Made by a program: the position numbers and the translations under genes. A stretch of DNA of 64,000 nucleotides, taken from the NCBI GenBank assembly GCA_022870745.1, contig CP085323.1, forward strand, positions 2,790,001-2,854,000, written 5' to 3'. The notes under the pieces were generated by a model that did not search any database, had not been told where the DNA came from, and worked only from the letters and a program-made list of their open reading frames with translations. This document shows, piece by piece, positions 2,920 to 30,293 of the stretch. Position 1 is the first letter of the stretch; the number at the start of each line of letters is the position of its first letter. The stretch comes from Silvibacterium acidisoli (GTDB taxonomy: Bacteria > Acidobacteriota > Terriglobia > Terriglobales > Acidobacteriaceae).

Positions 2920-3843
2920 ATGGACCCGTTCCTTGATGTAATCCGCCTCTTGCGACCGCAGGCCACTCTGTGGTCGCGGGTGGAGGCGACCGGCCGCTGG
3001 GGGCTCTCGTTTCAGCAGCACGATGACCTGCTGTTCTGCCTGGTGGAGAGTGGCTCGTGCGAGTTGATAAGGCCGGGCCAGGCGTCTTTGCCGTTGCAGG
3101 CAGCAGACTTCGTGCTGGTGCGCACCTCAACGCCATTCAGGCTGGCTACGGATGCCGGCGTTGAAGACACGGACAGTGAAGCGGTGATTCCCGGAGCAGG
3201 CGCGGTTGTGACACTGGGGAGCGGAAGCGGTCCGCGCACGGTGCTCCGCGGGGGCAGGTTTGTCTTTGACACGGCAAACGAACAGTTGCTCACAGGGCTG
3301 TTGCCGCAGGCGGTCCATGTGCAGGCCACCTCCTCTGCTTCGGAGCGCGTGCGGGCGCTGCTCGCAATGAACGAGTCAGAATCCGCCATGTCTGCTCCCG
3401 GAGGCGAGTTTGTGATCACCCGGCTGATGGAGCTGGTGCTGGTCGAGATCCTGCGCAACCCCGCGTTTCAGCCGGACCAGGTTCCCACCGGATTGCTGGC
3501 GGGGTTGGGTGATCCGGCGATGGCACAGGCACTGGTCGCGATGCATGGCGATGTCGCGCGACGGTGGACAACGGCGAAACTGGCGCGATTATGTGGCATG
3601 TCCCGCTCGGCGTTTGCCGCGCGCTTCGCAAGGATTGTCGGTCCTGGACCGGTGCAATACCTGCAGCAGTGGCGCATTGCTCTAGCCAAGGACGAACTGC
3701 GGCACGGCCTGCGCAGCGTTGGCGAGATCGCGCTGGCAGTCGGATTTCAGTCCGGCAGCGCGTTCAGTACCGCTTTCACTCGCGCCGTGGGTTGCTCCCC
3801 ACGCCAGTTCGCGGAAAGTTCGCGAATGCTTTCTCCGCAATGA
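2920..3843 (+). CDS. AraC-family transcriptional regulator with N-terminal cupin domain
   Basis: This is a 307-residue protein. Residues 1-190 resemble the cupin_6 ligand-binding domain of AraC regulators (GLSFQQHDDLLFCLVESGSC, PLQAADFVLVRTSTPFRL). Residues 195-305 form the double helix-turn-helix: WTTAKLARLCGMSRSAFAARF, then GEIALAVGFQSGSAFSTAFTRAVGCSPRQF, the classic second HTH with its G(F)xSxxxFxxxFxxxxGxxPxxF pattern. It is divergent from the SnoaL-like gene, so it probably controls that gene and itself. The effector is unknown. It lies immediately outside the left boundary of the putative tRNA-Lys island, so it may belong to the ancestral chromosome. Confidence 0.85.
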   Translation: MDPFLDVIRLLRPQATLWSRVEATGRWGLSFQQHDDLLFCLVESGSCELIRPGQASLPLQAADFVLVRTSTPFRLATDAGVEDTDSEAVIPGAGAVVTLGSGSGPRTVLRGGRFVFDTANEQLLTGLLPQAVHVQATSSASERVRALLAMNESESAMSAPGGEFVITRLMELVLVEILRNPAFQPDQVPTGLLAGLGDPAMAQALVAMHGDVARRWTTAKLARLCGMSRSAFAARFARIVGPGPVQYLQQWRIALAKDELRHGLRSVGEIALAVGFQSGSAFSTAFTRAVGCSPRQFAESSRMLSPQ

Positions 3844-3893
3844 GAAAAACGCCTTCCATTTGGAGGCATTCGCGTGAACCTGAACTTTTCAGA

Positions 3894-3942
3894 TGGTGGA
3901 CGCGGAAGGAATCGAACCTTCAACCTGCCGATTAAGCGTCGA
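3894..3942 (-). pseudogene. 3' fragment of tRNA-Lys (probable attachment-site remnant)
   Basis: On the minus strand this stretch contains part of the anticodon arm, the variable loop, the T arm with TTCGATT loop, the acceptor 3' strand CGCGTCC, the discriminator A and an encoded CCA, all matching the intact tRNA-Lys at 16878-16953. Similarity stops at 3942, within the anticodon stem, so there is no D arm or 5' acceptor strand and it cannot make a tRNA. Differences from the intact copy fall at 3928 and 3937. Such 3' tRNA fragments are typical att scars. Confidence 0.8.
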
Positions 3943-4109
3943 TAGAGAAGAAATCGTAACCTGCTGTTAATTCATTCTGAAACAGTAGTTTGCAGTAATT
4001 AACGCCCGCACCGATGCAATGCTGCAAGCTGAAAATGCTTGAAACCTATGGAGAGATTTGACTCTGTACGCCACGTTTACTCCACGCTATCGCTGCCTGT
4101 CTGGCCGCT

Positions 4110-5315
4110 CTAGCAAAGCTGTTTACTCATATGAATGCCCAGTTTGAGCGTGCCGATGGCGAGCAGCAGGTAGATAGCTGACGTGGCGCTGATGCATGGT
4201 CCCATGCCGAAGCGGCGCGCTCCGATTGCAATCGCGACAGGAGCAATGCCTCCGCCGAGCCATCCGAGCGAGTTCATGGTCCCGGCAGCAACTCCCCGGT
4301 TTTCAGCTGGTACGACATCGTAGAGCGAGGCCCACATATTTGCGTCATAAACTCCTTTGGAAAGTCCCAAGCCCAATAGGCCTATGACGAGTCCCTTCAG
4401 CGAGGATGTACTCCCTACGAGGAATAAAAACGGTGCTCCCAGGAAAAGCCCACAGGCTTGTACGATCTGGCGTCCCCCGCTTGACCAGGCGGTTGCGCGA
4501 TCTCCCAGATAGCCGCCAAGCAGCACCCCTATGACAGACGCGGTCTGCAGGTATGCCGTGCTGCTTATTCCGGCCTGGCCGAGATTCATCTTGAACTTGG
4601 TGAAGAGGAAAGTCGGCAGCCATGTGAGAAAAACCATGGCGACAAAATTGGCGCCAATAAAGGTTGCAATAATCGCATTCGATTCGGAAATACCAAGAAT
4701 ATGGATCAGGTCCATAACAAAGCTTTTTGATGAGCTTTGTTCATGGTCTGTTCGCGGCGGTGTTTTCATGAGTGCGGCAAGCGCAATTCCCAGCAGAATG
4801 CCGAAGATCCCGAGAAATAGAAAAGATGCACGCCAGCCATGTTGTTCTGCAACGTAGCCTGCAATCGATCCCCCAGCTACGGTACCGGCATACACGCTCG
4901 ATTGATGAATGGCCATGGCCCGGGAGCGGGTCTTCGGACCGTGGTAAAGCGCGATCAGGGTCATGGCCGCAGGAAAATAAAAGGCTTCCGAGAAGCCCCC
5001 GAGGGTTCGGAAGACAACGAGACTGCTGTATCCGCGCGCATATCCTGTAGCCGCAGTGACGACAGACCAGAACGCCAGAGCCCATAAAACGACACTTCGC
5101 GGAGAAACACGATCTGAAATCCATCCCGCAATGGGGCCGGAGATCGCGTAAACCCACATGAAAGAAGACGCGATAATGCCAAGCTGCAGATCGTTCAGGT
5201 TCATCTGCTGACGAATTTGCGGAAAGAGCGAAAAGATGGACTGCCGGTCTGCGTAATTGCAGAAGCAGACAAGCCACAGCATGCCGACCAGGAACCAGGC
5301 GTAACGCGACTTCAT
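4110..5315 (-). CDS. MFS transporter, anion:cation symporter (sugar-acid) type
   Basis: The 401-residue protein has about twelve hydrophobic segments. It opens with YAWFLVGMLWLVCFCNYADRQ, and its loop 2-3 region reads GPIAGWISDRVSPRSVV, the MFS motif A region. The N-terminal pattern (NYxDR, SxFxxxYAxxGPxxGWxxDR) is that of the ACS family, which imports galactonate, glucarate, hexuronates or similar organic anions with protons. It is divergent from the DapA/NanA-type aldolase, so I infer it brings that enzyme's substrate, probably an acidic sugar, across the inner membrane. The exact substrate is not visible. The 168-174-bp spacer between the two genes is AT-rich and likely holds both promoters. 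Confidence 0.8.
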   Translation of the reverse strand: MKSRYAWFLVGMLWLVCFCNYADRQSIFSLFPQIRQQMNLNDLQLGIIASSFMWVYAISGPIAGWISDRVSPRSVVLWALAFWSVVTAATGYARGYSSLVVFRTLGGFSEAFYFPAAMTLIALYHGPKTRSRAMAIHQSSVYAGTVAGGSIAGYVAEQHGWRASFLFLGIFGILLGIALAALMKTPPRTDHEQSSSKSFVMDLIHILGISESNAIIATFIGANFVAMVFLTWLPTFLFTKFKMNLGQAGISSTAYLQTASVIGVLLGGYLGDRATAWSSGGRQIVQACGLFLGAPFLFLVGSTSSLKGLVIGLLGLGLSKGVYDANMWASLYDVVPAENRGVAAGTMNSLGWLGGGIAPVAIAIGARRFGMGPCISATSAIYLLLAIGTLKLGIHMSKQLC

Positions 5316-5350
5316 GACAGGCGCAGGATCTCCCTCTTTAATTTAGGGCA

Positions 5351-5376
5351 TGGAACGGTGAGAACAGATAGTTCCA
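5351..5376. promoter_or_regulatory. candidate operator in the transporter/aldolase divergent promoter
   Basis: TGGAAC at 5351-5356 is mirrored by GTTCCA at 5371-5376 (6-bp perfect arms, 14-bp spacer). A further GTTCCA occurs near 5413. The site lies between divergent genes with an IclR regulator encoded just downstream, so it is a candidate IclR site. The arms are short and this could be chance. Confidence 0.25.
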
Positions 5377-5489
5377 ACGCTTGTGAGTTTATATTTCAAA
5401 ATATCGAATATTGTTCCAAAAAAAGTTGTCATTGGTCCAGTTGTGATTGAAAATAGGAAAGAATTGTTCTGATCATTGGGAGTATGAAA

Positions 5490-6407
5490 ATGCAGCTTGC
5501 TCGCCCTTTGCGGGGAATCATTCCGCCGCTCGTGACCCCGCTCAGCGGACCTGACACCCTGGATGTTGCCGGACTGGAGCGATTGATTGATCACCAAATC
5601 CGTGGAGGAGTACACGGAATCTTTGTTTTGGGTACGACCGGCGAGGGGCCTGCGCTGGCTTATGAAACACGTCGTGAGCTGATTCGGCGCGTGGTGAAGC
5701 ACGTTGACGGTCGTGTGGCGGTGCTGGTTGGCGTTACGGACACGGCCTACTCGGAAACGCGCAAGCTGGCCCGTTATGCAGCCGAGGAGGGAGCAGATGC
5801 TGTTGTGGTGGCTCCGCCATACTACTTTTACTCCAGTCAACAGGACCTTCTTGAGATGGTCCGGCAGTTGGCGAAGGACTCCGATCTGCCAATCTTTCTC
5901 TACAACATGCCCAGCATGACGAAGATGTGGTTTGAGCCGGAGACAGTTTTAGAAGCGGCGAAAATCGATAAGGTTTACGGTCTCAAGGACAGCTCCGGGG
6001 ATCTCGATTATCTTGCCCGCGTTGTCGAGCTGATGCATGACAGGACTGACTTCACCATCCTGATCGGTCCGGAAGAACTGCTTCGCGATGGCATGAAGCT
6101 TGGGGCTCATGGTGGCGTGAACGGAGGCGCGAATGTGCTTCCGCAGCTTTACGTTGATTTGTACAGCGCTTGTGCAAAGGGTGAGGATGAGCTGAGCGAG
6201 AAGCTGCATCGACAGGTTCTGGACTTCGGTAATGCCGTCTATGACCCTGCTGACAAAGAGTATCGCCATATTCGTGGCCTGAAGTCAGGGCTCTCGGTGA
6301 TGGGTATCTGCAATGATCTGCCCGTGTGGCCCTACCGCCCATGCGGCGGGGTATTTCGTACCTCGGTTGCAGAATATTTGGAACGGCAGTTTCAGCTTCA
6401 GGTATAA
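5490..6407 (+). CDS. DapA/NanA-superfamily class I aldolase (dihydrodipicolinate synthase family)
   Basis: The ATG at 5490 is preferred over 5484 because GGGAG at 5478-5482 lies seven bases before it. The 305-residue length and motifs are those of the family: GTTGEG (about residues 48-53), the YNMP tyrosine (about Y138) and the Schiff-base lysine in YGLKDSSG (about K166). Family members either make dihydrodipicolinate for lysine or cleave/condense 2-keto acids, for example N-acetylneuraminate lyase and 2-keto-3-deoxy-sugar-acid aldolases. Here a sugar-acid transporter, an IclR regulator and a sialidase-like gene are close by, so a catabolic lyase acting on a 2-keto-3-deoxy acid or sialic acid-like sugar is more likely than lysine synthesis. 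It is followed after 22 bp by the IclR gene. Confidence 0.85.
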   Translation: MQLARPLRGIIPPLVTPLSGPDTLDVAGLERLIDHQIRGGVHGIFVLGTTGEGPALAYETRRELIRRVVKHVDGRVAVLVGVTDTAYSETRKLARYAAEEGADAVVVAPPYYFYSSQQDLLEMVRQLAKDSDLPIFLYNMPSMTKMWFEPETVLEAAKIDKVYGLKDSSGDLDYLARVVELMHDRTDFTILIGPEELLRDGMKLGAHGGVNGGANVLPQLYVDLYSACAKGEDELSEKLHRQVLDFGNAVYDPADKEYRHIRGLKSGLSVMGICNDLPVWPYRPCGGVFRTSVAEYLERQFQLQV

Positions 6408-6429
6408 ATGAAGCGAATGAACCGTTTCC

Positions 6430-7272
6430 ATGCTTAAAGATTCTAAGAAGACAGTCAAGAAGGTGGTAGCTCGTACCAGGTCTACCGCCGTTCCCGAAGA
6501 AAACCAGTACGCATCCCGCGCAGTGGCCAAGGCTTTTGCGCTGATGCGCATTCTGGGCAGTTCCGGCGAGCATCATTCGCTCAGCCGGCTTGCCGAAGAG
6601 ATCGACCTTACCAAGAGCTCAACTTTCCGCCTGCTGCAGACCCTCCAGGCACTTGGCGAAATTCGTCAAGATGAAGATGGTCGTTATTTGCTAGCCAGGC
6701 AGGATCGCTCGAGCCGTTACGCGCAGATCGTTTCCGCGCTGCAGCCGATTGCACGGGGGCCGATGCACGAGTTGCAAATGCGCTTCAAGGAAACGTTAAG
6801 CCTTGCCGTGCTCTTTCAGAATCACATTGAAGTCGTGAGCGTGATCGAGAGCCCGCAAATCGTACGCATGGCGAATACGGTGGGGCGCATCCTTCCGCCG
6901 CACGCCAGTTCTTTAGGCAAGGCCATTGCCGCCTTCCAGCGGGAAACGGTTGCGCAACATCTTTTCCAAAGCTACGGTCTTCCGCGGCTGACGAAGAACA
7001 CGATCACGGAAGAGTTTCTGCTGACGCGCGAGATGCAGCAGATCCGCGAGCGCGGCTATTCCACCGAGGATGAAGAGTCTGTACTGGACGGATGTTGCTT
7101 CGGTGTGCCGATCTTCTTCGATTCCGACTTCGCGGTTGCCGCGATGAGCATTTCCATGCCGAAATCGCGTGCTTTACCAGAGGAAGAAAACAAGCAGCTC
7201 ACAGCAGCGATGCGCCAGAGCGCGGCTGCTCTCTCCAAGCAGCTGCGTCAAGCGCTACGAGGCGGCTCTTAG
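6430..7272 (+). CDS. IclR-family transcriptional regulator
   Basis: The 280-residue protein starts with a basic tail (KKTVKKVVARTR), then a winged helix (about residues 35-95: AVAKAFALMRILGSSGEHHSLSR..., EIDLTKSSTFRLLQTLQALG). An effector-binding IclR domain follows at about 100-275, with VSVIESPQIVRMANTVGRILPPHASSLGKA and the late ERGYSTEDEESVLDGCCFGVPIF segment. IclR regulators usually control nearby sugar-acid catabolic genes and respond to a pathway metabolite. It is probably cotranscribed with the aldolase and may act on the divergent promoter at 5316-5489. Its stop codon overlaps by four bases the stop of the convergent glycosidase-like gene. Confidence 0.88.
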   Translation: MLKDSKKTVKKVVARTRSTAVPEENQYASRAVAKAFALMRILGSSGEHHSLSRLAEEIDLTKSSTFRLLQTLQALGEIRQDEDGRYLLARQDRSSRYAQIVSALQPIARGPMHELQMRFKETLSLAVLFQNHIEVVSVIESPQIVRMANTVGRILPPHASSLGKAIAAFQRETVAQHLFQSYGLPRLTKNTITEEFLLTREMQQIRERGYSTEDEESVLDGCCFGVPIFFDSDFAVAAMSISMPKSRALPEEENKQLTAAMRQSAAALSKQLRQALRGGS

Positions 7273-7280
7273 CGAGCCGC
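7262..7280. terminator. hairpin over the convergent stop codons of the IclR and glycosidase-like genes
   Basis: GCGGCTC (7262-7268) pairs perfectly with GAGCCGC (7274-7280) around a 5-nt loop containing both stop codons. It has no long T-run on either strand; it may act as a bidirectional terminator or simply end the two messages. Confidence 0.35.
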
Positions 7281-9722
7281 TTCAGTAATCAGCCATACTT
7301 CCGCGATCTGCAAGCCTCTTCCGCCGCCGCCTGCTCCTGTGGGCCGTGTCCATTTCAGGTCGAGCTTGCCGTGGGTCGTAGCCGACTGCGGAATATCGAA
7401 TTCAAGTGTCTCCGGATTGCCCTTGCGGCGTAGCGGCGCATGGATCTCGACCGCATCATTCGCAATCAGGCGAATGGGCAGTGTATAGTCTTCGCCGCCA
7501 TATGTTACGCGAAGCCGGTAGTGCTTTGCCGGGTCGAGATCTTCGTAACGCATCTCGACTGGCGTGTCATATAGCGTCTCGGCATACGTGATCGTTGAGA
7601 TACGCAACCCTTCATCTGGAATCTTGTCCGCAATGCCATTTACGGTGGTTGCGTAAAGTTGCGGATCTCTGCTGGCTCCTTCGCCCATCACCAGGTGTGG
7701 TTCGTCGGAAGGATCTCCGAGGTCGTCATAAAAGCCGCCCGGACCTGGATCTTCATAGTGAAGCATTGCGGAAAGGCCTGCTTGCCGTCCCGCTTCTGTT
7801 GGTAGCTTCTCCAAGCGGTCGAACTGCTTCTCCATCCATGCGCGATTGTTGAGGTTCACGTCCACGCGATCGAGATTGGCGCCGCGTTCAATGCCGGATG
7901 CGCCGTACTTCTGAGTGCTCAATTGCATACCTGCATCATGGAAGAGATTATCGGCAAGCTCGAAGATGCGTTTGCGCAGGTCCTGTGCGGAAGAATGAGG
8001 TGTTGCGTTAAGAGCCTCCCGCGCTGCGGCGATGGTTTTGATGGAATTGCCTTCTGGAGCAGAGCGAAGAATGGCAAGCGCTTGTTGCTCCGCACAGGTT
8101 TCTCTAAGCAGGCGTGCACGGATATAGGCATCGTAATAGGCTCGATACAATGCCATTTCAAAGCGCCAGTTACGCAACTGGCCTGCATCGGCAGCACGTT
8201 CCAGCGCCTGGAACTGCAGCAGCGTTGTATCTACACCACGATTGGTGAGGGGTGAGCCGTTCCAGTTGCGTTCAAGGCCCATGATCGCGTCCGCAAAGGT
8301 GCTGCTGTCGAATGGGCCGATCTGCGAACCGAGGAAGTAGCGGCTATAGTCACGCAGCGTGTCCATTGGATCGGTCTGTGAAGACCATCCCAGTTGATCC
8401 CATATCACCTTGTTCACATCATCGTTCACTCCTTCGCTGTAGGTGACAAAGCCGCTGTGCAAGCCGGCAAATGTGCGATAGATATTAGTCTCTTCCATCG
8501 GACGCGGATCGATCGGTTCGCGTCCTTCGGAGAAGGCGTATGCCGGATCCCAATCCGGCATGGCAAATTGTGCATGCATGGAGTGTGCAATGTCCGGATA
8601 AGCCTGTAGCTGATATTGCGCAGGAATCATCCTCCGCTGCAATGGAAAGCTATCGCGCGACTGCGGTCCCACAAAGAAGCCTGTGATGAACTTTGGGTGT
8701 TGTTCGCGCAGAATGGAGTAGAACTCGCTGTACCAGGCAGCGTTGAAGCCCTGTGCTGAAATCCATACCTTGGCGTGAGGGTGATATTTGTGCAGAATCT
8801 CAGCTTCCTTCTCCACAAGCGGTAAAAGGTATCTCGGTTCTGTATGGCCCGGATCGCCGCCAGGAACATAGAGCGCATCGATGTGTGGGAGTGCCCGGAA
8901 CAGAGCGTCAGCTTTTTGCAGTTCGGCATCTACTTGTGCCGGGTCGGAATAATCCTTTGCCATCTCCGGGTAGTAGAGGTCAAAGTCCAGTCCATAGGAA
9001 ATCGTCGATTTGCATATGCCAATTAAGGTCTCAAGCGCAGGGGCGGGAAAGAGTGGACTGTCGTTGCGATCGTCAGAATTCGGAGCCACGACCTGGATGG
9101 TGTTGTTGCCGAAGACAGCCAGGTCGCGCGTCTGTTGATCGAATTGAGCGACGGTCCACGCGTCATAAGTATTGTTCTTGTATCGATAGCCGATCTGTTG
9201 TCCACGCACAGGATACTGTGGCGCTGTTGTGATGTTGATGTCGGTAGCAAGCATCGCACGATTCGGCTCCATCTCCAGCTTGCGCAGCAGATAGCCTACT
9301 CCGAAGAGCAACCCACGGTTATCGTTGCCTGCAATGACGATTGTGGTGGCCGAACCGATGTGCAACGTTCGAATGGAAAATCCTTCGGATCTGTTCGCTG
9401 CGCCTGTCGAGGCCTTTTCCCACGAGAATCTCATGGCTTTCGGGAGCAAGCCTGGGATCTCATTGTGTAACCCGGCGACGATGGTTACGTTTGCCCCTGA
9501 TGGACCGTGCGCGAGGGCCCATTCCACGTGTGTTCTCTTTGACGTTTCTTCTCTGAGAACCTGAATCGCCTTGTTTTCCAACTGATTCGGATGAGCTGCG
9601 GTTACGACCACCGCTTGAGTGCAGGCAGTTGCAGCATCGGCAGATGGAGCCAGCAGGCTGGCGAAAGTAAGAATGACTGTGCTGAAGAGAGCAGGCTTTC
9701 TGGGAACAAACGTGGTTTTCAC
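7269..9722 (-). CDS. secreted glycoside hydrolase-like protein (GH20/GH67-type N-domain plus TIM-barrel region)
   Basis: About 817 residues. Neither candidate start (TTG 9740 or GTG 9722) has a good ribosome site; GTG 9722 gives a clean signal peptide ending near PSADAATA. Residues about 35-160 look like the alpha/beta N-domain that precedes the barrel in GH20, GH67 and related enzymes (NKAIQVLREET, TIVIAGNDNRGLLFGVGYLLRKLE). The middle (160-530) reads like a (beta/alpha)8 barrel with acidic patches such as YYPEMAKDY, YVPGGDPGHTEP and VTYSEGVNDD. The C-terminal 200 residues look like a beta-rich accessory domain. I cannot place it in one CAZy family; an exo-acting glycosidase on an acidic sugar fits its neighbours. 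It is convergent with IclR and divergent from the TonB receptor. Confidence 0.6.
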   Translation of the reverse strand: MKTTFVPRKPALFSTVILTFASLLAPSADAATACTQAVVVTAAHPNQLENKAIQVLREETSKRTHVEWALAHGPSGANVTIVAGLHNEIPGLLPKAMRFSWEKASTGAANRSEGFSIRTLHIGSATTIVIAGNDNRGLLFGVGYLLRKLEMEPNRAMLATDINITTAPQYPVRGQQIGYRYKNNTYDAWTVAQFDQQTRDLAVFGNNTIQVVAPNSDDRNDSPLFPAPALETLIGICKSTISYGLDFDLYYPEMAKDYSDPAQVDAELQKADALFRALPHIDALYVPGGDPGHTEPRYLLPLVEKEAEILHKYHPHAKVWISAQGFNAAWYSEFYSILREQHPKFITGFFVGPQSRDSFPLQRRMIPAQYQLQAYPDIAHSMHAQFAMPDWDPAYAFSEGREPIDPRPMEETNIYRTFAGLHSGFVTYSEGVNDDVNKVIWDQLGWSSQTDPMDTLRDYSRYFLGSQIGPFDSSTFADAIMGLERNWNGSPLTNRGVDTTLLQFQALERAADAGQLRNWRFEMALYRAYYDAYIRARLLRETCAEQQALAILRSAPEGNSIKTIAAAREALNATPHSSAQDLRKRIFELADNLFHDAGMQLSTQKYGASGIERGANLDRVDVNLNNRAWMEKQFDRLEKLPTEAGRQAGLSAMLHYEDPGPGGFYDDLGDPSDEPHLVMGEGASRDPQLYATTVNGIADKIPDEGLRISTITYAETLYDTPVEMRYEDLDPAKHYRLRVTYGGEDYTLPIRLIANDAVEIHAPLRRKGNPETLEFDIPQSATTHGKLDLKWTRPTGAGGGGRGLQIAEVWLITEAAR

Positions 9723-9895
9723 AGGGTAAGAATACTGCAAATCTGGTTGTTTTTCAGAAAAAGCATGTTTGTGTCATTTTTTGATTGAATACAGCATGAA
9801 ACTGGATTAGCGTGTGTTCACTGAAGTTTTTCAGGCTGTTTCGCAGCGATCTGGCGTGAAGTAAAACGCCGGACGGGGTAAAGGAAAGAGATCTA

Positions 9896-12800
9896 ATGAA
9901 GCGATTTGTTCCCATACTGTGTGCCCGCGTTTCCTGCCGTGCAACACTCGCCGCTCTCGTCCTCTTTTTGGCTTGTTCGTTCCAGATGCTTGGCCAGGGC
10001 GTCACGGCGGATATCTCAGGTACCGTCACAGATGAAACGGGGGCGGTCGTCCCCGGTGCTCAGGTCGTGGCAACGAACACGGCAACCAACGTAGCAACCT
10101 CCGCCGTAACCAATGGCAGTGGCGTGTATTCGATCCGTTTTCTGCAGATCGGAAACTACACTCTTACTGTTACGGCTCCAGGGTTTTCTACCTGGAAGGC
10201 GAATGCCTTCGACCTTGAAGTTGGACAGGTTGCCAAAGTGGATGCCAAGCTGAGTGTTGGCGCAGTGCAAACGGTGACGGCAAGCGCAGAGCTTGCTCCG
10301 ATCCTGAACACAGATAACGGTACGCTCAGCACAGCAATTTCGGAATCGCTGATCAACGATCTCCCCATCAACGGCCATAACTTCGAAACGCTGGCGCAGT
10401 ATGCGCCAGGTGTGAACGTCTCCGATGGCAACCAGTGGAATGGTGCGTCAGGTTCGCCGAACAACTCAGGAGAACGCACGCAGAGCTTCGCAACCTTGCC
10501 GAATGTCAACGGCAACCGCACCTATAACAATAATTATCTGCTCGATGGCATCAGCATTATTGATACCGGTGCGAATATCTCGAATGGTTTTGGCGTTCCG
10601 GCTTATGCGCCTGCAGCAGCAGCCGTGAAAGAAGTCAACATCCTTACCGCGGTGCCTCCAGCGGAGTACGGGGACGCGACCGGCGCACAACTGATCCAGG
10701 TTATGCGCAACGGTACGAATGAATACCACGGCCAAGGCTACTTCTACCTGCAGAACTACAACATGGATGCGAATACTTTCGGGAACAAGCGTTCTTCTCC
10801 TGCAACAGCGCGTGCCCCGTATACGCAGCGCATCTTTGGCGCGACGCTTGGTGGCCCGGTTCGCATTCCTCACTTCTTTGACGGGCGCAACAAGCTCTTC
10901 TTTTTTGTCGATTACGAGGCCTATCGCAAACCCACCGCGGGAGATGGACAGACGAGCGTGCCGCTGAATGCATGGCGAGGGAATACCGGTGGGGCGACCT
11001 CGGTCGATCCGTCGCTTTCACCCCTTACTGGATACGCTTATTTCGGCAGTGCAGTACCACAGCTGTACGATTCGCAGAATGGCTATGCGCCTTTCAACCA
11101 GACTATCAACGGGACAACTTATCAGAATCTGGTTCCCATTCGTAACCCTGTCGCAACTTATCTGTTCGCGCACCCCGAACTGTGGCCTCTGGCAAACCAC
11201 GCAGCGGCAACGGCCCCGGTCCAATATAACTATCAGTCACCGGTAAAGACGCTGGATCGTAATGACCAGGCTGACATCAAGGTCGACTGGAAGATCTCCG
11301 ATCGTGATTCGATCTTTGCCCGTGTGTCGGGCGGGGAAGCATGGGATTCAGAACCGACTCCGGCAACGCCGATCTCCTTCCCGACAGTAAATGATTTCCC
11401 TTTCAAGCAATACGTTGGAAACTATATTCACATCTTTACGCCGAACATCGTGAATGATTTTCGTGCAGGATTCACCCGCATTGGTTATGAATCTTTCAAC
11501 GAAGACCCTTCTGGTCTGTTTGGGAATGGTGACAGCCTCATTGGCATTCCGTTTTCGCAAAGCGTCTCCGGCTTCTCTCTGCAGTCGTTTACGCAGAGCA
11601 CCAACAGCACGGGCGTGACTTCGGTTGGTACTGCCGCAACAGGAAACATCGCGCTCGACAATCACTTCAGCTATAACGACACACTTACCTGGAGCCGCGG
11701 CGTGCATACCATGAAGTTTGGTGCCCAGCTCTTCCGCATTCAGAACAACTATTATCTGAACTCGACCGGTGGTCTTCTCGGAAGCTTCGCATACTCAGGC
11801 TCTTTCACCGGCAATCCGAACGCTGGTCAATCGCTCGGTTATGATTTCGCCGACTTCGTGCTCGACTATGTCTCCTCGCGCAGCGTTGAGACGGAAACGG
11901 GCGACGTGGGGCAACGTCAGTACCGCTTCGCTGCCTTTGCGCAGGACGACTGGAAGGTGACGCCCGCGCTCACGGTGAACTATGGGCTTCGCTGGCAGTA
12001 TGATCAGCCGGTATATGAGGTCAACAACAAGATTTCCAATGTTGATCCGACGACTGCCCAGGTTATTCTGGCGGGTGTCGATGGCAATAGCCGCTCTCTT
12101 TATAAGCCGACTTACAATCAGTTCAACCCGCGTCTTGGATTTGCCTGGCAGGAGAGCCCCCGTCTGGTGGTTCGCGGTGGATTCGCCATCACGACTTTCT
12201 CCGACTACAACGTGCAGACGCATACCGGGAACGCTCCGTACCATCTGACGGTCAACCAGGTTGCCGTAACTCCGACGACAGCCTCGCCTGGAACACCCTA
12301 TGCGGTGGGTGACGGTTTCCCAACAGCGACCGGTGCGACATCACAGTACACCGCCTGGAATGCTTTGCATCCGCAGTGGGTTCCACAGTGGAACCTGACG
12401 ACGGAATACCAGCTGAGCAACAGTGCATCGTTCAGTATCGGCTACGTTGGCGAAGTCGGTCAGCACCTCTCCGACATTCGTAACATTAACCAGTACAAAC
12501 TTGCTGGGCAGCCGACCAGTGCTCCGTTCTATAGCGCGGTGGGGTCAAGCCTGATCAAGCTGCTCGAAACCGAAGCGTACATGAACTATAACGGCCTTCA
12601 GGCTCAGTTTCGCCAGCGTACGCATAACGGACTGGAGTTCACGGTCAACTACACGTATTCGAAGAACCTGTCGGACTCAGGTGGTCCGATCGGCGTGAAC
12701 GACACAAACTCGAGCTCGGGCTATCCGCAGAATAGTTATTGCCTGAAGTGCGAATATGGTCCGACGGGCAACGATACGCGCCATATGTTCAATTGGACAG

Positions 12801-13423
12801 CGCGTTACGAGCTTCCCTTTGGACATGGCCGCCAGTATATGAACAAAGGCAACCCCGTCATTGATGAAATCTTCGGTGGCTGGGTGGTTTCGGCAAACTC
12901 CGTTCTGTTGAGCGGTTTTCCCGACACGATCACTGCCTCCGGTTCTGCTAACGTCGGCACTGCCGGCAGCCTGCGCGCAAACCATTATCGTCACATGGTG
13001 GTGAAGAATCGGGCATGGGGATACGTCACCTCCACAATTGCCGGTGGATGGGGAACAGACCCGAGTGCAGTGGATTCGGGCGGTACGAATAGCCCATGTG
13101 CCAAGGCTGGCTTCGACGACGGAACCTGCGCATACGGCCAGCCTGCCCTGGCAGCGACTGGAGCAACACCGATTTTTGGGGATGCTTCGGTAGGCTCCGA
13201 GCGCTCACCGGGCTATCAGAACTACGATGCCGCAGCTGAAAAGGCCTTCCGCGTGTGGCGTGATCAGTCGATCGATTTCAAGTGCTCTGCCTACAACGTA
13301 GGAAACATTTCCAGCTACAACAATCCGGGACGCGGTGTCGATGGCAGCAGCACCTGGGGGCTTGTTCAGAGTACGCGTTCTCAGCAGCGTCAACTGGAAT
13401 TGCAGCTGGAATACAAGTTTTAA
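9896..13423 (+). CDS. Oar-like TonB-dependent outer-membrane receptor
   Basis: At 1175 residues this is the large receptor type common in Acidobacteriota. The start is supported by AAAGGAAAG upstream. Residues 1-34 are a signal peptide; 38-115 form a carboxypeptidase-regulatory beta-sandwich (ISGTVTDETGAVVPGAQVVATNTAT, SIRFLQIGNYTLTVTAPGF). A plug follows at about 130-260 (LPINGHNFETLAQYAPGV, NNYLLDGISIIDTG), then a long beta-barrel ending in the C-terminal aromatic LEYKF needed for outer-membrane insertion. TonB receptors import oligosaccharides or chelates at the expense of the proton gradient. With the flanking glycosidase-like and sialidase-like genes, I infer import of a sugar oligomer. 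A strong terminator follows at 13441. Confidence 0.9.
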   Translation: MKRFVPILCARVSCRATLAALVLFLACSFQMLGQGVTADISGTVTDETGAVVPGAQVVATNTATNVATSAVTNGSGVYSIRFLQIGNYTLTVTAPGFSTWKANAFDLEVGQVAKVDAKLSVGAVQTVTASAELAPILNTDNGTLSTAISESLINDLPINGHNFETLAQYAPGVNVSDGNQWNGASGSPNNSGERTQSFATLPNVNGNRTYNNNYLLDGISIIDTGANISNGFGVPAYAPAAAAVKEVNILTAVPPAEYGDATGAQLIQVMRNGTNEYHGQGYFYLQNYNMDANTFGNKRSSPATARAPYTQRIFGATLGGPVRIPHFFDGRNKLFFFVDYEAYRKPTAGDGQTSVPLNAWRGNTGGATSVDPSLSPLTGYAYFGSAVPQLYDSQNGYAPFNQTINGTTYQNLVPIRNPVATYLFAHPELWPLANHAAATAPVQYNYQSPVKTLDRNDQADIKVDWKISDRDSIFARVSGGEAWDSEPTPATPISFPTVNDFPFKQYVGNYIHIFTPNIVNDFRAGFTRIGYESFNEDPSGLFGNGDSLIGIPFSQSVSGFSLQSFTQSTNSTGVTSVGTAATGNIALDNHFSYNDTLTWSRGVHTMKFGAQLFRIQNNYYLNSTGGLLGSFAYSGSFTGNPNAGQSLGYDFADFVLDYVSSRSVETETGDVGQRQYRFAAFAQDDWKVTPALTVNYGLRWQYDQPVYEVNNKISNVDPTTAQVILAGVDGNSRSLYKPTYNQFNPRLGFAWQESPRLVVRGGFAITTFSDYNVQTHTGNAPYHLTVNQVAVTPTTASPGTPYAVGDGFPTATGATSQYTAWNALHPQWVPQWNLTTEYQLSNSASFSIGYVGEVGQHLSDIRNINQYKLAGQPTSAPFYSAVGSSLIKLLETEAYMNYNGLQAQFRQRTHNGLEFTVNYTYSKNLSDSGGPIGVNDTNSSSGYPQNSYCLKCEYGPTGNDTRHMFNWTARYELPFGHGRQYMNKGNPVIDEIFGGWVVSANSVLLSGFPDTITASGSANVGTAGSLRANHYRHMVVKNRAWGYVTSTIAGGWGTDPSAVDSGGTNSPCAKAGFDDGTCAYGQPALAATGATPIFGDASVGSERSPGYQNYDAAAEKAFRVWRDQSIDFKCSAYNVGNISSYNNPGRGVDGSSTWGLVQSTRSQQRQLELQLEYKF

Positions 13424-13440
13424 ACTGCTCCAACTTCTTA

Positions 13441-13482
13441 TCGCATCTGCCGTTAGACTCTGAACGGCAGATGCGTTTTTTT
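13441..13482 (+). terminator. strong intrinsic terminator after the TonB receptor gene
   Basis: A 13-bp perfect stem (CGCATCTGCCGTT at 13441-13453 with its complement at 13462-13474), an 8-nt loop and eight T residues at 13475-13482. It ends 32 bp before the start of the next gene, which therefore probably needs its own promoter or relies on read-through. Confidence 0.92.
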
Positions 13483-13514
13483 TGGCACGTAACATGGTAG
13501 AAGAGGACAACCGG

Positions 13515-16124
13515 ATGATGCCTGAAGCTCCCTGGTCCCGTCGCAGATTCATGCAAATCATGAGTGCTGCAGCACCGATGATTGCTGCGAGAGGTACTTT
13601 TGCATTGCCCTCCCGTGCAATTGAGTATGATTCGGCTGGAGCGGAGTACCAGCGCATTGAACCAGGCATTTACAGCATGGGAGAGGATCGTGAGATTCCG
13701 CTCGAGTTCTGCGAGCCACTGGCATACATGACACGCGCAGAATTGCAGAAGATGTTTCCGTACGGAGACCCTGCGCGCTTTTTACTTTCCGATAGATTAT
13801 TTACGTCAGGGGATTTCGATACGCGCCCCGTTGTCCCTGTCAGGATTGACCACCCGTTCCTGATTTCCGCGACACCGGTAACGAATAGGCAGTATGAGCA
13901 CTTTGATCCGGAACATAAGAAAATGCGCGGCAAGTTTGGCTTCTCAAGAGAAGACGATGACGCGGTAATTTATGTGAGCTGGCACGATGCGGTTGCGTAT
14001 TGCAATTGGCTTAGTAAGAAGGAAGGTAAGATTTATCGTCTGCCTTCGGAGGCGGAATGGGAGTATGCCGCACGAGCCGGCACGCGAACATTCTTCTCAA
14101 CCGGTGATGAGCTTCCGGATTATTATCTGCAGGACGCCGAGGTGACAGACTTCACTGCAGAAAAGGACAAGGTTAGTCTTCGGGTCGGACAGAGGCCGCC
14201 AAACCCATGGGGGTTGTATGACATGCACGGCCTTGTTGAGGAATGGGTGGAGGACTGGTACGCACCGTACCATCGGGATAGAAGTGTTCCCGGGGAAGGT
14301 ATGTTTAAGGTTACGCGTGGCGGGAGCTTTGGAACCTTCGCATACTATCTGCGTTCTGCCAATCGCGCTGCCGCGCTTCCGCAGACGAGGGGATTCACCA
14401 TCGGGTTTCGTGTTGCTTGCGGCGATCCGCAGCCGGAGAGAAACAGCATCGACCGGAAGAAGACATTTCCGGTGAAACAGAGATCTCTTGAAGAGGTGCA
14501 GAGGCATCACGATCCCGCAAACCCGTATTTTCGCGGACCTCGTCAGTTCGTAAGAATTCCGAAGGACTCGCATGGGCCGCTCTATCATTGGCACAACCAC
14601 GATACCGGAATTGCGGAATGCCCAAACGGGGACATGCTCGCCATCTGGTACAGCTGTGCAAAGGAGCAGGGCCGTGAGCTGAGCGTGGCGGCGAGCCGCC
14701 TGGAGTATGGCGCAGAGGAATGGAGCGAAGCCTACTCGTTTTACGACACTCCCGATCGGAATGACCATTGCCCTGCGCTCTGGTTTGACGGCGACGAAAC
14801 GATCTATCACCTGAACGGCACTGCATTATCCCACTATTGGGAACCGCTGCAGATTGTTCTTCGTGAATCGAGGGATAGCGGCGTGACATGGTCAACGCCA
14901 CGATACATTGCAAAAGATTTTGGACTGCATCACATGGTCTGCCAGCCGATGATTCGCCTGAGCAACAGTTGGTTGATCTTCGGAGCCGATGCGCACCCCG
15001 ATGCTTCGGTCATGTGGCTGAGCAAAGATGATGGCCAGACATGGACGGATACTCCAGGAAAGATCAATGGTATCCACGCGTCAATCGTGGAGTTGAAAGA
15101 CGGGCGCCTCATGGCTCTCGGCCGTGGCAATAATATTGATGGTCATATGCCGATGAGTATCTCAAGCAATTACGGCATGACATGGAACGCTGTGGCCTGC
15201 GAATTGCCTCCCGTGACCTTTACGCAACGCTTTTCGATGAAGCGACTGGCCGAAGGACCGCTGGCCATTGCGACATTCTTGCCGGATGTATCGAAACTTG
15301 AGGCGCATAAGGATACGGACCGTGAATTGGCAAAGCTCTGTATCTGCATCTCCTACGATGATGGACTGACCTGGCCGGTGCGCCGTATCCTTAGCGACGA
15401 TGCGGGCGATCATGGCGTGACAGGCATGAGCAATGGCCGCATCTATATGGGGCCGGGAAACAGTGAGCCTACCGGTTATGTCAGTCTGGTTCAGGCACGG
15501 GATGGTGTCATTCACGTGCTCAGCAGCATCAACCATTACGCATTCAATCTGAAGTGGGTCGAGTCGGGTGAGAAGAACCCAAGTCCGATGCCCCAAGCGA
15601 AGATGTTGCCCCAGAAGAAACAGCTCGCGGCGTCTATAACGCCGGAGCAGATGGCCTCCCTGCGGATAGGGCAGCACAATTGGACCAACGAGAGAACCGG
15701 TGCGATGGAATCACTGGATCTCGAGAGGGGATTCACCTTAGAGGCTCGAGTCGCGTTACAGAACGATCTCGAGGATGCTTTGACGCTCAAGGTTTTCGTA
15801 CGCAGTGGATGTACGATGTGCAATCGTTACTGGTTGCGTGTGAATGCGAAGTCCGCGGCGTACTGGTATGCAGGTGCGTGGCAGTTACTGCCGCAGGTCG
15901 TGCCTGCGGGGGTGGGCGTCTATCGAATGGCTGTTCGCGACGACACGTGTGTGCAGATCTATCACGACGAGGCGCTGCTTGCGTGCTATCCGGCTTCCTA
16001 TGAAATCGGATTTGGTCCGCCGACGCGCGGCAACTGGATGGAGTGGGAGATCTCTGCGGGCGATCGGGAATTGACAGGCTTTGAATTGTCCTACGATCTG
16101 GATGGCCCGTATCGACTCGCATAA
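13515..16124 (+). CDS. Tat-exported fusion: FGE/SUMF1-like domain + sialidase (BNR) propeller + C-terminal beta-sandwich
   Basis: The ATG at 13515 is chosen because AGAGGA lies about seven bases upstream; the product is 869 residues. Residues 1-30 hold a twin-arginine signal (SRRRFMQI). About 45-300 is an FGE-sulfatase-type domain (HPFLISATPVTNRQY, YVSWHDAVAYCNWLSKKEG, RLPSEAEWEYAARAGT, TRGGSFGTFAYYLRSANRAA, GFRVA). It lacks the cysteines of true formylglycine-generating enzymes at the active-site position, so it is probably not a sulfatase activator. About 340-690 is a sialidase/neuraminidase-like propeller with several Asp-box-like repeats (SRDSGVTW, SKDDGQTW, SSNYGMTW, SYDDGLTW). The last 170 residues look like a LamG/concanavalin-type sandwich. 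Export and domain content suggest glycan binding and hydrolysis; substrate is inferred only. Confidence 0.8.
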   Translation: MMPEAPWSRRRFMQIMSAAAPMIAARGTFALPSRAIEYDSAGAEYQRIEPGIYSMGEDREIPLEFCEPLAYMTRAELQKMFPYGDPARFLLSDRLFTSGDFDTRPVVPVRIDHPFLISATPVTNRQYEHFDPEHKKMRGKFGFSREDDDAVIYVSWHDAVAYCNWLSKKEGKIYRLPSEAEWEYAARAGTRTFFSTGDELPDYYLQDAEVTDFTAEKDKVSLRVGQRPPNPWGLYDMHGLVEEWVEDWYAPYHRDRSVPGEGMFKVTRGGSFGTFAYYLRSANRAAALPQTRGFTIGFRVACGDPQPERNSIDRKKTFPVKQRSLEEVQRHHDPANPYFRGPRQFVRIPKDSHGPLYHWHNHDTGIAECPNGDMLAIWYSCAKEQGRELSVAASRLEYGAEEWSEAYSFYDTPDRNDHCPALWFDGDETIYHLNGTALSHYWEPLQIVLRESRDSGVTWSTPRYIAKDFGLHHMVCQPMIRLSNSWLIFGADAHPDASVMWLSKDDGQTWTDTPGKINGIHASIVELKDGRLMALGRGNNIDGHMPMSISSNYGMTWNAVACELPPVTFTQRFSMKRLAEGPLAIATFLPDVSKLEAHKDTDRELAKLCICISYDDGLTWPVRRILSDDAGDHGVTGMSNGRIYMGPGNSEPTGYVSLVQARDGVIHVLSSINHYAFNLKWVESGEKNPSPMPQAKMLPQKKQLAASITPEQMASLRIGQHNWTNERTGAMESLDLERGFTLEARVALQNDLEDALTLKVFVRSGCTMCNRYWLRVNAKSAAYWYAGAWQLLPQVVPAGVGVYRMAVRDDTCVQIYHDEALLACYPASYEIGFGPPTRGNWMEWEISAGDRELTGFELSYDLDGPYRLA

Positions 16125-16877
16125 GCGAGGGGCAGGAGCATTGTCGCTGTATCCGCGTCAAGGCGCTCGAATCCGATATTGTCTTCACTTCCGAACCTGT
16201 TTTTTTCAGGGCGGTAACGACCGAGCGCAGCGGCAACACGGAGTGTACGGTCGCTCCCGCCCTGATCCTCCTTGTATCTTGAGTTAGCCTGATCCGTGCC
16301 TTGACCCCGGATCATATGCAAGAGGTTGATATTAAGGATTGTTGACCTGTCAGGAAACAGAGGGATAAAGGGCCGCTCGATTTCCAATCTTCTTCTGATT
16401 GCAACTGCGCTTTCTGTGTTGCAATCAATCTCCGCACCGTTTCATAACTATGCTCGACATCTTCTCCGAAAACGGAATGCCGGAATGATGGCCATACACG
16501 AACAAGGCTCTCCGGACTCTGAAACGGATGCTCTCGAAAGCAGGGGAATGGAAATTGATTCGGGATGTTCCGAAAATTCGCCTTGTCGAAAGCGTATGGG
16601 CGGGACACTCTGATTGATTCGCAGACTGCAAGAGCGTTGCTTCAAAGTTTGTCCGAACCGGTGAAGCACAAACGAACCAGCAGGACACGAACGCAGTTGC
16701 GGGACATCATCGTAACTGCTCACGACACAGGGATGCCTATCAGCATCATCGTCTCGATCCTCTGCGTGAAGTCATCGGTCGCCGCAATGAAGCAGATGGC
16801 TTACGTCGCGGTAGCAAAACACCGGCGAAAGGCCCAGGACCTGATTTTTCTATGCAATTGATCGGGGGTGAGTGAGA
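16125..16877. other. 753-bp stretch without a convincing gene, beside tRNA-Lys
   Basis: Only short open frames occur here (for example 16326-16613 and 16565-16861 on the plus strand, 16312-16608 on the minus strand), with no ribosome sites or recognisable domains. The minus frame contains a SYETVRR peptide like that of IS6-type transposases, too little to call. Base composition is lower in GC than the flanks. The position next to the tRNA is where an integrase of the putative island would be expected, so this may be decayed mobile DNA. Confidence 0.5.
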
Positions 16878-16953
16878 TGGTGGACGCGGAAGGAATCGAA
16901 CCTTCAACCTGTCGATTAAGAGTCGAATGCTCTGCCAGTTGAGCTACGCGTCC
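16878..16953 (-). tRNA. tRNA-Lys(CTT)
   Basis: On the minus strand the acceptor stem is GGACGCG/CGCGTCC with discriminator A and encoded CCA. The D arm is GCTC...GAGC, the anticodon loop CTCTTAA gives anticodon CTT, the variable loop is AGGTT, and the T arm is GAAGG-TTCGATT-CCTTC. The 76-nt gene is complete; the only flaw is a T-C mismatch at the top pair of the anticodon stem (27-43). It decodes AAG lysine codons. Its 3' half is duplicated at 3891-3942. Confidence 0.96.
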
Positions 16954-17072: not shown

Positions 17073-18758
17073 TCAGAACGAAAAAGAAATGCCGCCTTCG
17101 ATGGCACGCGGAGCCTGCGCGAAATAGAGCACGCTGCCATCGCTGGTGACGAAGGGCAGGTAACCCTGCGCGAGCAGGTTGCGCACATCGATCAGCGCAT
17201 CGATGCCATTCGGCAGCACGCCCTTGTAGTGAATCGGCTGGCGCAGGTAGAAGCTAAGGTAAGGATCGCGCTGGTAGGTGTTGAATGGGTTGACGGGAGT
17301 CAGCGTATCCGGCTGCTGCCAGCGATACGAGGCCTGCCACTGCGTTCCATGTTCGAGCTTGCCGCCAAAGCTCGCCGAGTAGCTTCCGGCACGGCGAGTC
17401 TTGAAGCCCAGTGAGCCATTGGAAACCGTTAACGGCGCGGGGTGCGGGTCCAGTATCAGGGAATTGCCGATGCCAGAATCGAAGCCGATCCACATATCAC
17501 CCGGCAGCATCTCCTTAATCTCGGCAAGCACGCCCGAACCCGAGAAATCCTGGCCCGCAACCGCAAGCATTCCGGTCGACGAGTCATAGAGGTAATTGCC
17601 CTGCTTCCAGTCCGCCGACGAGATCGTACCGCCCCCGTGAATCATGGGGTTTTCGACGCGATCATGGAAGACCGTTACCCGCGTACGGATATTGCCCGAA
17701 GTTTCGGAAAAGGATACCTCCTGGTGGAGACCATGTTCCTGTACCAGTTGGCCATTGCGCTCGGCGACCATGGGAGGCAGTGAAGCCGGCCGATCGATTG
17801 CATCGGCAGACTGCAGGCCGGGAGCTGTCGTCACATGGTAGGCGACTACGGCATTGCCGAGTTGCATCCGCACACCGGCAAAGGCATGCTGCGAAAGCAC
17901 GGTGTTTCCAAGGTGCACGCCTTCCATTTCGCTGCCGAATTCGGCGGTAAGCGCAGGGCCGACCTCCATTACCTCCGAGGTGCGCAGCACCATCGCCTGC
18001 ATGCCCTGGGCATCCGGGCCGCCACCGATCTCGGGGCGGTCGACAAAGGCTCCGACAGTGCGAAGAGTGCGGCCTGGGCCCAGTTCCTGCTGATATCCGA
18101 CGACAGTATTAAGAGAGGTATCTTCGGCCTGGCCAACGTCGGCGCGGAAAATCAGCTGCCGCGTGTCATCCGGCGAGCGGCGCCATTCAAATCCCTGGTG
18201 GACTCCGCCATCTCCAAAAGTGCTTTCTCCGCCGCGCAGGGTAACGCGCGCTTTGAGGGCAGGGTTCACGCCGTCGGCTTCAGTCACAACCAGCAGTGGA
18301 CCATCCTCAAGCATGCGGAGCAGCGGCCGGTTCGCAGAAAGGCGCAGCGTCCAGGTCCAGTCGTCTGAAGGCTCGTCGGTGGTGCGAGGACGTGCCGGGA
18401 GCCAGCGGAAGGCTTCGTAAAGTGTGCTGAGGGTGAGGTTGACTACGAGTTTGGAGCTGGCTGCTACATGCAGATTTTCGCGCAGAGTCGGCAGAAAGAG
18501 AGAGCCTGTCGCTTTGACGCCGTAGATTCCCGGCAGAATCTTGGGGAGCTCGTAATGTCCGTGGTCATCGGTAAAGGTCTGGCTGATAACGGTGAGATCA
18601 GGGCGGAGAAGCTGAACCAGTGTACCGATCTGCGGCGCACCCTTGCTATCGCGCACCACACCCATCACCGCGCCGTCTGTGAGCGCACAGGCGGGTAGCG
18701 TAAGGGCTGCGGCAAGCAGCGTCAGAACGGGGACGACTATGGAAAATCGACGATTCAC
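17073..18758 (-). CDS. outer-membrane barrel protein with carboxypeptidase-regulatory domain, no TonB plug
   Basis: A GTG at 18758 gives MNRRFSIVVPVLTLLAAAL, a good signal peptide; a TTG at 18800 is the alternative. Neither has a clear ribosome site. The product is 561 residues. After the signal, residues about 35-110 form a carboxypeptidase-regulatory sandwich (GVVRDSKGAPQIGTLVQLLRPD, YELPKILPGIYGVKA). The rest is alternating beta-strand sequence ending EGGISFSF, the aromatic end of an outer-membrane barrel. I see no plug domain or TonB box, so it resembles the barrel half of an Oar receptor without the gate. It lies 94 bp downstream of the GWxTD gene on the same strand, and the two probably form an operon. 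The function is unknown. Confidence 0.65.
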   Translation of the reverse strand: MNRRFSIVVPVLTLLAAALTLPACALTDGAVMGVVRDSKGAPQIGTLVQLLRPDLTVISQTFTDDHGHYELPKILPGIYGVKATGSLFLPTLRENLHVAASSKLVVNLTLSTLYEAFRWLPARPRTTDEPSDDWTWTLRLSANRPLLRMLEDGPLLVVTEADGVNPALKARVTLRGGESTFGDGGVHQGFEWRRSPDDTRQLIFRADVGQAEDTSLNTVVGYQQELGPGRTLRTVGAFVDRPEIGGGPDAQGMQAMVLRTSEVMEVGPALTAEFGSEMEGVHLGNTVLSQHAFAGVRMQLGNAVVAYHVTTAPGLQSADAIDRPASLPPMVAERNGQLVQEHGLHQEVSFSETSGNIRTRVTVFHDRVENPMIHGGGTISSADWKQGNYLYDSSTGMLAVAGQDFSGSGVLAEIKEMLPGDMWIGFDSGIGNSLILDPHPAPLTVSNGSLGFKTRRAGSYSASFGGKLEHGTQWQASYRWQQPDTLTPVNPFNTYQRDPYLSFYLRQPIHYKGVLPNGIDALIDVRNLLAQGYLPFVTSDGSVLYFAQAPRAIEGGISFSF

Positions 18759-18852
18759 TGAGTCAGTTGTTCGTTGCTCCCTGGCTTCTGCTCCAAACAA
18801 AAGAACCGAAACATGGACGTGCCGCTCTCTGGCGGCTGGTCCTATTCACCAG

Positions 18853-30032: not shown

Positions 30033-30293
30033 GGCGATATCATGCGCCAGGAAGATGGAAGCATTCTTAAAATGCTGAGAATTGCCGAAGAATTCTCAGT
30101 TAACGAATTTTGTGAGTGTCATCAAAGCCACTTTGGGCCTTGTACGCATCGAATATGTAATTGCCGTAAATGTTTTTGAATCCGTCCCCGGTATTCATTC
30201 GTTGTAAAATGTGCATGTTCCACGGCATGGTTGTCTGTATTTGCAGTAGTTGAATGTAAAAAACTAAGCGACTTAAGAGGACAAATAATAAAA

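Follow-up and report, generated by a model that had tools for sequence, protein, structure and literature searches.

How did a 13-kb block of putative carbohydrate-use genes come to lie between an intact tRNA-Lys gene and a detached 3' piece of the same gene in the acidobacterium Silvibacterium acidisoli? The locus lies in a stretch of 64,000 nucleotides (nt) of contig CP085323.1 (positions 2,790,001 to 2,854,000 of the forward strand, assembly GCA_022870745.1), hereafter called the window, to which the plain coordinates below refer. tRNA genes are textbook landing sites for genomic islands, and a first-pass annotation of the window had proposed that the block was acquired by tRNA-targeted integration. 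Our analysis bears this out through the order and orientation of the two tRNA copies, the borders in base composition, a relic of an integrase, the integrases and tRNA breaks found at the same place in relatives, and an element end whose likeness to that of another genus (g18) is confined to the inner side. We estimate at roughly 90% the probability that the 3' end of tRNA-Lys(CTT) was the insertion site of an element with a tyrosine integrase that decayed afterwards, and the block at 3943-16877 is very probably a genomic island.

The tRNA-Lys copies and the block between them

The sole tRNA gene that ARAGORN detects in the window is a tRNA-Lys with anticodon CTT (16878-16953, minus strand). 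A repeat search of positions 1-22000 recovered the 52-nt direct repeat that the first-pass annotation had described, with 50 identical positions (96%) between 3891-3942 and 16875-16926 and a spacing of 12,984 bases between the copies, a likeness far beyond chance. It comprises nt 28-76 of the tRNA, a 3'-terminal portion of 49 nt, and runs on for 3 nt outside the gene. The proximal copy (16875-16926, minus strand) lies inside and just past the intact tRNA gene, and the distal one (3891-3942, minus strand) is a 3' fragment of tRNA-Lys(CTT), broken off within the anticodon arm (tRNA nt 28) and with the same orientation as the intact gene. The 3' end of the tRNA gene faces into the block, with the fragment downstream of it, so that the tRNA is left whole on one side with its 3' fragment opposite, as had been expected of an integration into this gene.

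This fragment has no close equivalent elsewhere in the genome. When the tRNA was compared with 184 kb of S. acidisoli DNA, the fragment scored 80.6 bits and the runner-up place 25.6 bits, and the 301 bases at 3800-4100 match, at an E value of 0.001, only themselves and the tRNA-Lys in the whole 5.36-Mb genome. The fragment is also free of any conserved protein domain, as the open reading frame (ORF) of the AraC protein on its left ends at 3843 and that of the MFS protein on its right reaches 4110, and the ORF that overlaps it (3564-3935) has no Pfam match at an E value of 1. The fragment and the intact tRNA-Lys of the same genome differ at two places; because this tRNA is identical in three relatives, both changes can be placed in the fragment.

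The DNA between the two copies is poor in guanine and cytosine (GC). Its GC content is 54.2% over 3943-16877, and none of the 292 windows of the same length outside it is as low (mean, 59.4; standard deviation, 0.85; 184 kb). The value is low all the way between the repeats, with DNA of normal genome GC on either side, and a segmentation of positions 1-40000 with two breakpoints placed the borders at 3800 and 17100. GC content at third codon positions (GC3) of the six genes in the block ranges from 0.585 to 0.658, against a mean of 0.714 (standard deviation, 0.050) in 100 other ORFs of at least 200 amino acids. These six genes are uninterrupted ORFs that take up 89.8% of the block, and the repeat search of 1-22000 gave no further pair of long repeats within it. 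Apart from the block, the GC content also dips to 0.498 at 30001-31000, where two small ORFs are found (30231-30518 and 30519-31013).

The gap between the last of the six genes and the tRNA (16125-16877) holds the remains of an integrase. The first-pass annotation had considered the integrase apparently lost and had suggested a six-frame profile search of this gap for a decayed one. With a profile of 31 integrases and the six-frame translation of 20 kb, we found a relic at 16498-16590 (plus strand), reading toward the tRNA, with an E value of 6.7e-9. The loss is therefore partial: no catalytic integrase part was recognised in the gap, and what remains we take to be the end of the core-binding part. 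The profile was built from 29 of the 30 ORFs of 30 loci (the one shorter than 250 amino acids was excluded) together with the tRNA-Lys-side integrases of two relatives (G054 and G023), and an earlier profile of six relatives' integrases had given the relic an E value of 0.0022. In a control, the real gap reached 30.3 bits, compared with maxima of 6.5 bits among 500 doublet shuffles and 4.8 bits among 228 other stretches of 753 bp. The runner-up of the profile search (16682-16738, plus strand), also found as a second tblastn segment, is colinear with the relic in a different frame and could be another piece of the same gene. The small ORFs of the gap gave no Pfam match and, in PHROGs, chance-level families only (the relic's frame was outside the PHROGs set). 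Genes for virions or conjugation, as in a prophage or an integrative and conjugative element, were found neither among the six genes (Pfam) nor among the small gap ORFs (Pfam and PHROGs).

From this arrangement we infer the integration itself and the order of events. The attachment site of the element (attP) would have carried the 3' half of tRNA-Lys, and a crossover in the anticodon arm would have rebuilt a whole tRNA (16878-16953), displacing the 3' fragment to 3891-3942. The integrase, which would once have abutted the 3' end of the tRNA, would later have been reduced to its relic, other transfer genes would have been lost or would never have been there, and the fragment would have gained its two changes after the insertion. 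With the integrase decayed, transfer genes lost or absent and the fragment changed, the island would now be fixed.

The same tRNA site in related genomes

We scored 34 loci with a match to tRNA-Lys for an integrase or a relic of one within 3 kb (E value, 0.001; genomes and loci are given by our G and L numbers). Nine have one on the 3' side of the tRNA (the window, G009, G013, G018, G023, G024, G036, G051 and G054), and a single locus has one on the 5' side (L160, with a tRNA 79% alike); a tenth 3'-side case, G034, is outside the 34-locus count. All nine read toward the tRNA, with the end of the frame 4-73 nt from it in the eight besides the window.

We also examined 11 tRNA-Lys fragments, those of S. 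acidisoli, G004, G022, G023, G024, G025, G035, G036, G051, G054 and G423, which come from 61 genomes among the matches listed and two further genomes, with shorter or edge tRNA matches (e.g., in G012, G017, G018 and G031) left out. Breaks were placed against the tRNA of the same genome in ten of the fragments (G022 being excluded), and all ten lie in the anticodon arm (nt 28-38), seven of them within nt 28-32. They fall at nt 28 in S. acidisoli and G423, at nt 30 in G023, G024 and G025, at nt 31 in G036, at nt 32 in G054, at nt 33 in G004, at nt 36 in G035 and at nt 38 in G051. Up to the break, seven of the ten show zero mismatches to the tRNA of the genome they come from. Judging from these genome comparisons, the 3' end of tRNA-Lys(CTT) is a recurrent insertion site in the relatives.

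The fragment of S. acidisoli is joined to DNA that is found next to a fragment in another genus as well. On its inner side, 197 nt, tRNA part included, align with G025, of genus g18. We take the non-coding stretch at 3943-4087 (no strand assigned) as the end of the element; the part at 3968-4087 has 83% identity with the DNA on the inner side of the g18 tRNA-Lys fragment. When the inner sides of 55 genome pairs were scored without the tRNA part, S. acidisoli and G025 reached 79, G022 and G036 reached 52, and the next best pair 13; on the outer side of the fragment both of these pairs score 11, and 200 shuffles of the S. acidisoli outer side gave a maximum of 18. The homology begins at the tRNA end and continues into the element, the pattern that a mobile end should show. 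The inner arm was detected in three of 398 family genomes, namely, S. acidisoli, G025 and, as a 27-base match, G148 (our family searches used samples of 250 or 398 genomes from a larger group). In G025 the fragment with its element end (L101:7040-7239) has the same orientation as the intact tRNA and is about 0.56 Mb away from it if the contig is circular, with no cargo relative in 15 kb at an E value of 1e-10. Because of this distance and the missing cargo, the G025 copy would be a remnant or would have been moved.

A separate observation concerns a second tRNA match (85%) of the tRNA-Lys query in the S. acidisoli genome. About 100 bases from it there is a weak integrase piece (C1:5335538-5335663 and 5335769-5335827; PF00589, E value 7.3e-5, below the cut-off), and integrases are found 0.1-0.8 kb from the corresponding place in G001, G023, G027 and G035, among the matches listed. 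This second tRNA site may be in use.

Cargo genes and their relatives at other sites

The first of the six genes codes for an MFS transporter (4110-5315, minus strand; PF07690, E value 1.7e-55) nearest to the D-galactonate type, its best Protein Data Bank (PDB) match being 6e9n (D-galactonate transport) and its best NCBIfam model a D-galactonate transporter, below the cut-off of that model. It is followed by an enzyme of the DapA/N-acetylneuraminate-lyase superfamily (5484-6407, plus strand; PF00701, E value 8.6e-58; best PDB match, 4xky), a probable sugar-acid aldolase or dehydratase with a presumed substrate, in which Lys168, within a GLKDSSGD stretch, is presumably the Schiff-base lysine. 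The third is an IclR-family regulator (6430-7272, plus strand; PF01614 and PF09339), whose NCBIfam matches (BhcR, PcaR, KdgR and others) are all below cut-offs. We give no substrate names to these three proteins because the NCBIfam matches listed for them fall below the curated cut-offs.

The remaining genes code for larger proteins. A glycoside-hydrolase (GH)-like protein (7269-9740, minus strand) has a GH67-N-like part (PF03648, E value 5.7e-4, below the cut-off) and relatives in 21 of the 250 sampled family genomes, S. acidisoli included; a structure model made from two sequences (mean predicted local distance difference test [pLDDT] score, 45) was too poor for use. Next to it is a TonB-dependent outer-membrane transporter (9896-13423, plus strand; PF25183, PF13620 and PF07715). 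The last gene (13482-16124, plus strand) codes for a fusion of a formylglycine-generating-enzyme (FGE)-like domain (PF03781) and a propeller (PF13088) with matches to the sialidase fold, behind an N-terminus that we take to be a twin-arginine-like motif. The model of the fusion has a mean pLDDT of 54.7, with a better propeller part, and aligns with sialidases over about 400 columns at a root mean square deviation of 4.4-6.5, which suggests a sialidase fold for the propeller; as low-confidence models can give meaningless matches, we propose the fold only and not an enzyme activity.

The fusion is rare among the family genomes sampled. At an E value of 1e-100 it was found in one of the 250 sampled genomes, that of S. 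acidisoli, so that the pattern named in advance as speaking against an island, relatives with all six genes in the same place and no tRNA fragment, was not seen. In another collection the fusion matched 19 loci, 15 of them over both domains, the nearest being a metagenome-assembled genome (MAG; 67%) and Terriglobus roseus (64%). This unusual architecture is also present in MAGs labelled Planctomycetota, Phycisphaerae, Pedosphaera, Actinomycetota and Acidobacteria.

Relatives of the other genes keep some of the same company. T. roseus DSM 18391 has, in a row (L123), genes for a GH-like protein, a DapA-family protein (39%), a regulator, a TonB-dependent transporter and an FGE-sialidase fusion, so that four of the six kinds of gene recur there in a comparable order. 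It differs in that the regulator belongs to another family (presumably GntR-type), no MFS gene was matched and no tRNA lies within its 22.6 kb; the tRNA-Lys of T. roseus is about 0.77 Mb from the cluster. The GH-like relative of G001 (69%) is at another site, where 30 kb contain no partner except a 26% transporter paralogue and there is no tRNA in the locus. Among 11 GH-like loci, that of G001 and those of ten of the 19 further genomes, an MFS protein of at least 43% identity occurs in four, a transporter of at least 40% in four, a DapA-family protein in one and an IclR protein in none.

The set had first been described as a coherent one for the uptake and catabolism of sugar acids. Based on its partial association at the GH-like loci and in the T. 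roseus row, it looks like a partly coherent set, and the sugar-acid name is plausible, the odds being about even that the substrate of the cargo is an acidic sugar. Going by the protein families, we infer that uptake and trimming of an acidic glycan would fall to the TonB-dependent transporter together with the GH67-N-like and sialidase-fold proteins, both of which are probably exported; the freed sugar acid would be imported by the MFS protein and then cleaved or dehydrated by the DapA-family enzyme, with the IclR protein in control of the set.

The cargo could also have been acquired after the integrase, in a two-step origin that overlaps with our explanation: an integrase element would first have entered tRNA-Lys, and the sugar-use genes would have been added later by homologous recombination or another insertion. 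Such a history would account for whole cargo ORFs beside an integrase relic, for a block with no recognised transfer genes, and for cargo relatives that live at other sites, with no tRNA within either the T. roseus or the G001 locus. A later addition would, however, have to be reconciled with a GC content that is low between both repeats and with a block that has no second long repeat pair inside. We regard it as unlikely, though as a history to be taken seriously, and consider it likely that the cargo arrived with the integrase.

Flanking genes, known islands and the family

The two flanks of the island behave differently in the relatives. The right neighbour, outside the island, is a CarboxypepD_reg-like barrel protein (17073-18800, minus strand) that is conserved in position, adjoining the tRNA in seven of eight genus relatives and also in G025 and G027, among the matches listed. 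The left side differs in each relative examined: at 15 loci (including the G004 contig, which lacks the tRNA), the nearest ORFs, up to 14 at each, match the window and 20 kb beyond it only at 24-35%. Comparing the S. acidisoli ORFs over 120 kb leftward with the tRNA neighbourhoods of eight relatives (45% identity and 60% cover; left flanks of 3.8 to 118 kb in the relatives), we found matches only to one gene in G025 and in G007 and to three genes in G001, at distances of 5-44 kb from the tRNA. The AraC protein has a best genus match of 37% and closer copies (54 and 53%) elsewhere in its own genome, and the next gene leftward, for a membrane protein (764-2296), has a best match of 42% in relatives. 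The first 3 kb on the 3' side of the T. roseus tRNA-Lys gave no DNA match at an E value of 1e-5 in the stretches compared. As for island genes at the same site, the intact tRNA-Lys loci of 17 relatives, some with short flanks, contained only TonB-transporter paralogues of 24-33% at an E value of 1e-10. The 3' side of tRNA-Lys is, to judge by these alignments, a breakpoint among the relatives examined. The first-pass annotation had expected that without the island the AraC side and the plugless-barrel side would meet at a single tRNA-Lys; such a junction was not seen in the relatives examined, in which this tRNA usually has neighbours other than the AraC side.

Several observations weigh against the insertion of an integrase element and have to be set beside those in its favour. 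Among the relatives examined (one genome per species), none is an island-free genome with both flanks joined and none has the AraC side beside tRNA-Lys, and the right neighbour of G004 is separated from the tRNA, on a different contig. No transfer genes were recognised in the block, Pfam misses the relic at 16498-16590 even at an E value of 10, and the second relic piece (16682-16738) is weak, with an E value of 1. In composition, the IclR gene is inconspicuous when taken singly, its GC3 of 0.658 being only about 1 standard deviation under the mean, and values as low as those of the cargo also occur in an ORF that lies outside the block (2448-2966; GC3, 0.607). In 25 of the 34 loci scored, no integrase was seen within 3 kb (the left flank is shorter than 1 kb in four of all 34), and the tRNAs of L159 and L160, 75-79% alike, may be other tRNAs. 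The integrase matches in G024 (3.2e-4) and G051 (7.3e-5) are weak, and G023, G036 and G054 fed the two profiles, being also PF00589 matches in their own right. Mismatches to the tRNA of the same genome occur in the fragments of S. acidisoli (2), G035 (2) and G004 (5, with missing last bases counted).

As no relative has the left flank beside tRNA-Lys, some rearrangement on the left side may have taken place. A chromosomal rearrangement between tRNA-Lys sequences, which would have brought unrelated DNA up to the tRNA and would mean that the block is not a single inserted unit, could explain why the neighbour on the tRNA 3' side is different in each relative examined and why tRNA and fragment are so far apart in G025 (if its contig is circular), but we consider it improbable because the stretch of low GC stops close to the fragment at one end and close to the tRNA at the other, with normal GC on both sides. 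Local duplication of the tRNA without a mobile element, though a known route to short repeats and compatible with an integrase seen only as a relic, is very improbable given the same-arm breaks in the fragments of other genera, the element-end DNA whose sharing with another genus is limited to the inner side, the GC borders near both copies and the integrases at the same spot in relatives.

Among known systems, the tRNA-borne genomic islands of Islander come closest. In the Islander account (PMC4383910), an element whose attP carries the 3' half of a tRNA yields an intact tRNA with a fragment downstream, with a peak of island size at 13.6 kb and an anticodon class of 2083 of 3919 islands. The S. 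acidisoli island agrees with those islands in having a tRNA and its own 3' fragment in one replicon, the fragment downstream and in the same orientation, in its size of 13.0 kb, within the 2-200 kb limit, in a fragment clear of conserved protein domains, as Islander demands, and in its break in the anticodon region. It differs in its integrase, since Islander requires a PF00589 integrase ORF; the 10 PF00589 matches of the S. acidisoli genome all lie outside the island, which would fail the filter because its integrase ORF is reduced to a relic.

Islands with more complete integrases are found at the same tRNA-Lys in two relatives. That of G036 spans 18.0 kb from fragment to tRNA, with the break at nt 31 and the integrase at the tRNA, and that of G423 spans about 44 kb, with the break at nt 28 and a whole-looking integrase ORF (L233:7389-8865) inside the fragment end. 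As the G423 integrase is internal to the fragment and separated from the intact tRNA by about 44 kb, we place it at the far end of its island. In both relatives the integrase can be matched along most of its length, with an interruption in G036, unlike the S. acidisoli relic.

For the phylum, 16 candidate islands with tRNA genes and integrases appear in the published description of Candidatus Solibacter usitatus (PMC3174227), and in a comparison of 24 acidobacterial genomes the statements on mobile elements leave it unclear whether such events brought metabolism-relevant genes (PMC5900883). No account of tRNA-Lys islands of Acidobacteriaceae turned up among the titles and starts of abstracts listed, from a literature with limited cover of subscription journals, on islands, tRNA and Acidobacteria, on anticodon-loop crossover and on carbohydrate islands. 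The kind of event is well known, and the S. acidisoli locus is a new, decayed case of it.

The locus thus provides a worked case from a site that is used in several genera: its two attachment-site copies enclose genes that probably form a metabolic set, and the relic of an integrase is kept alongside. Because of this shared use, whether mobile elements have contributed metabolic genes becomes a question that can be tested across the family through tRNA-Lys. As a tentative view, in which we place less than even confidence, the tRNA-Lys(CTT) of the family may be a standing delivery port where integrases that break the same arm have landed repeatedly and left metabolic cargo, and carbohydrate-use loci may pass between genera in this way and become fixed by the loss of the integrase.

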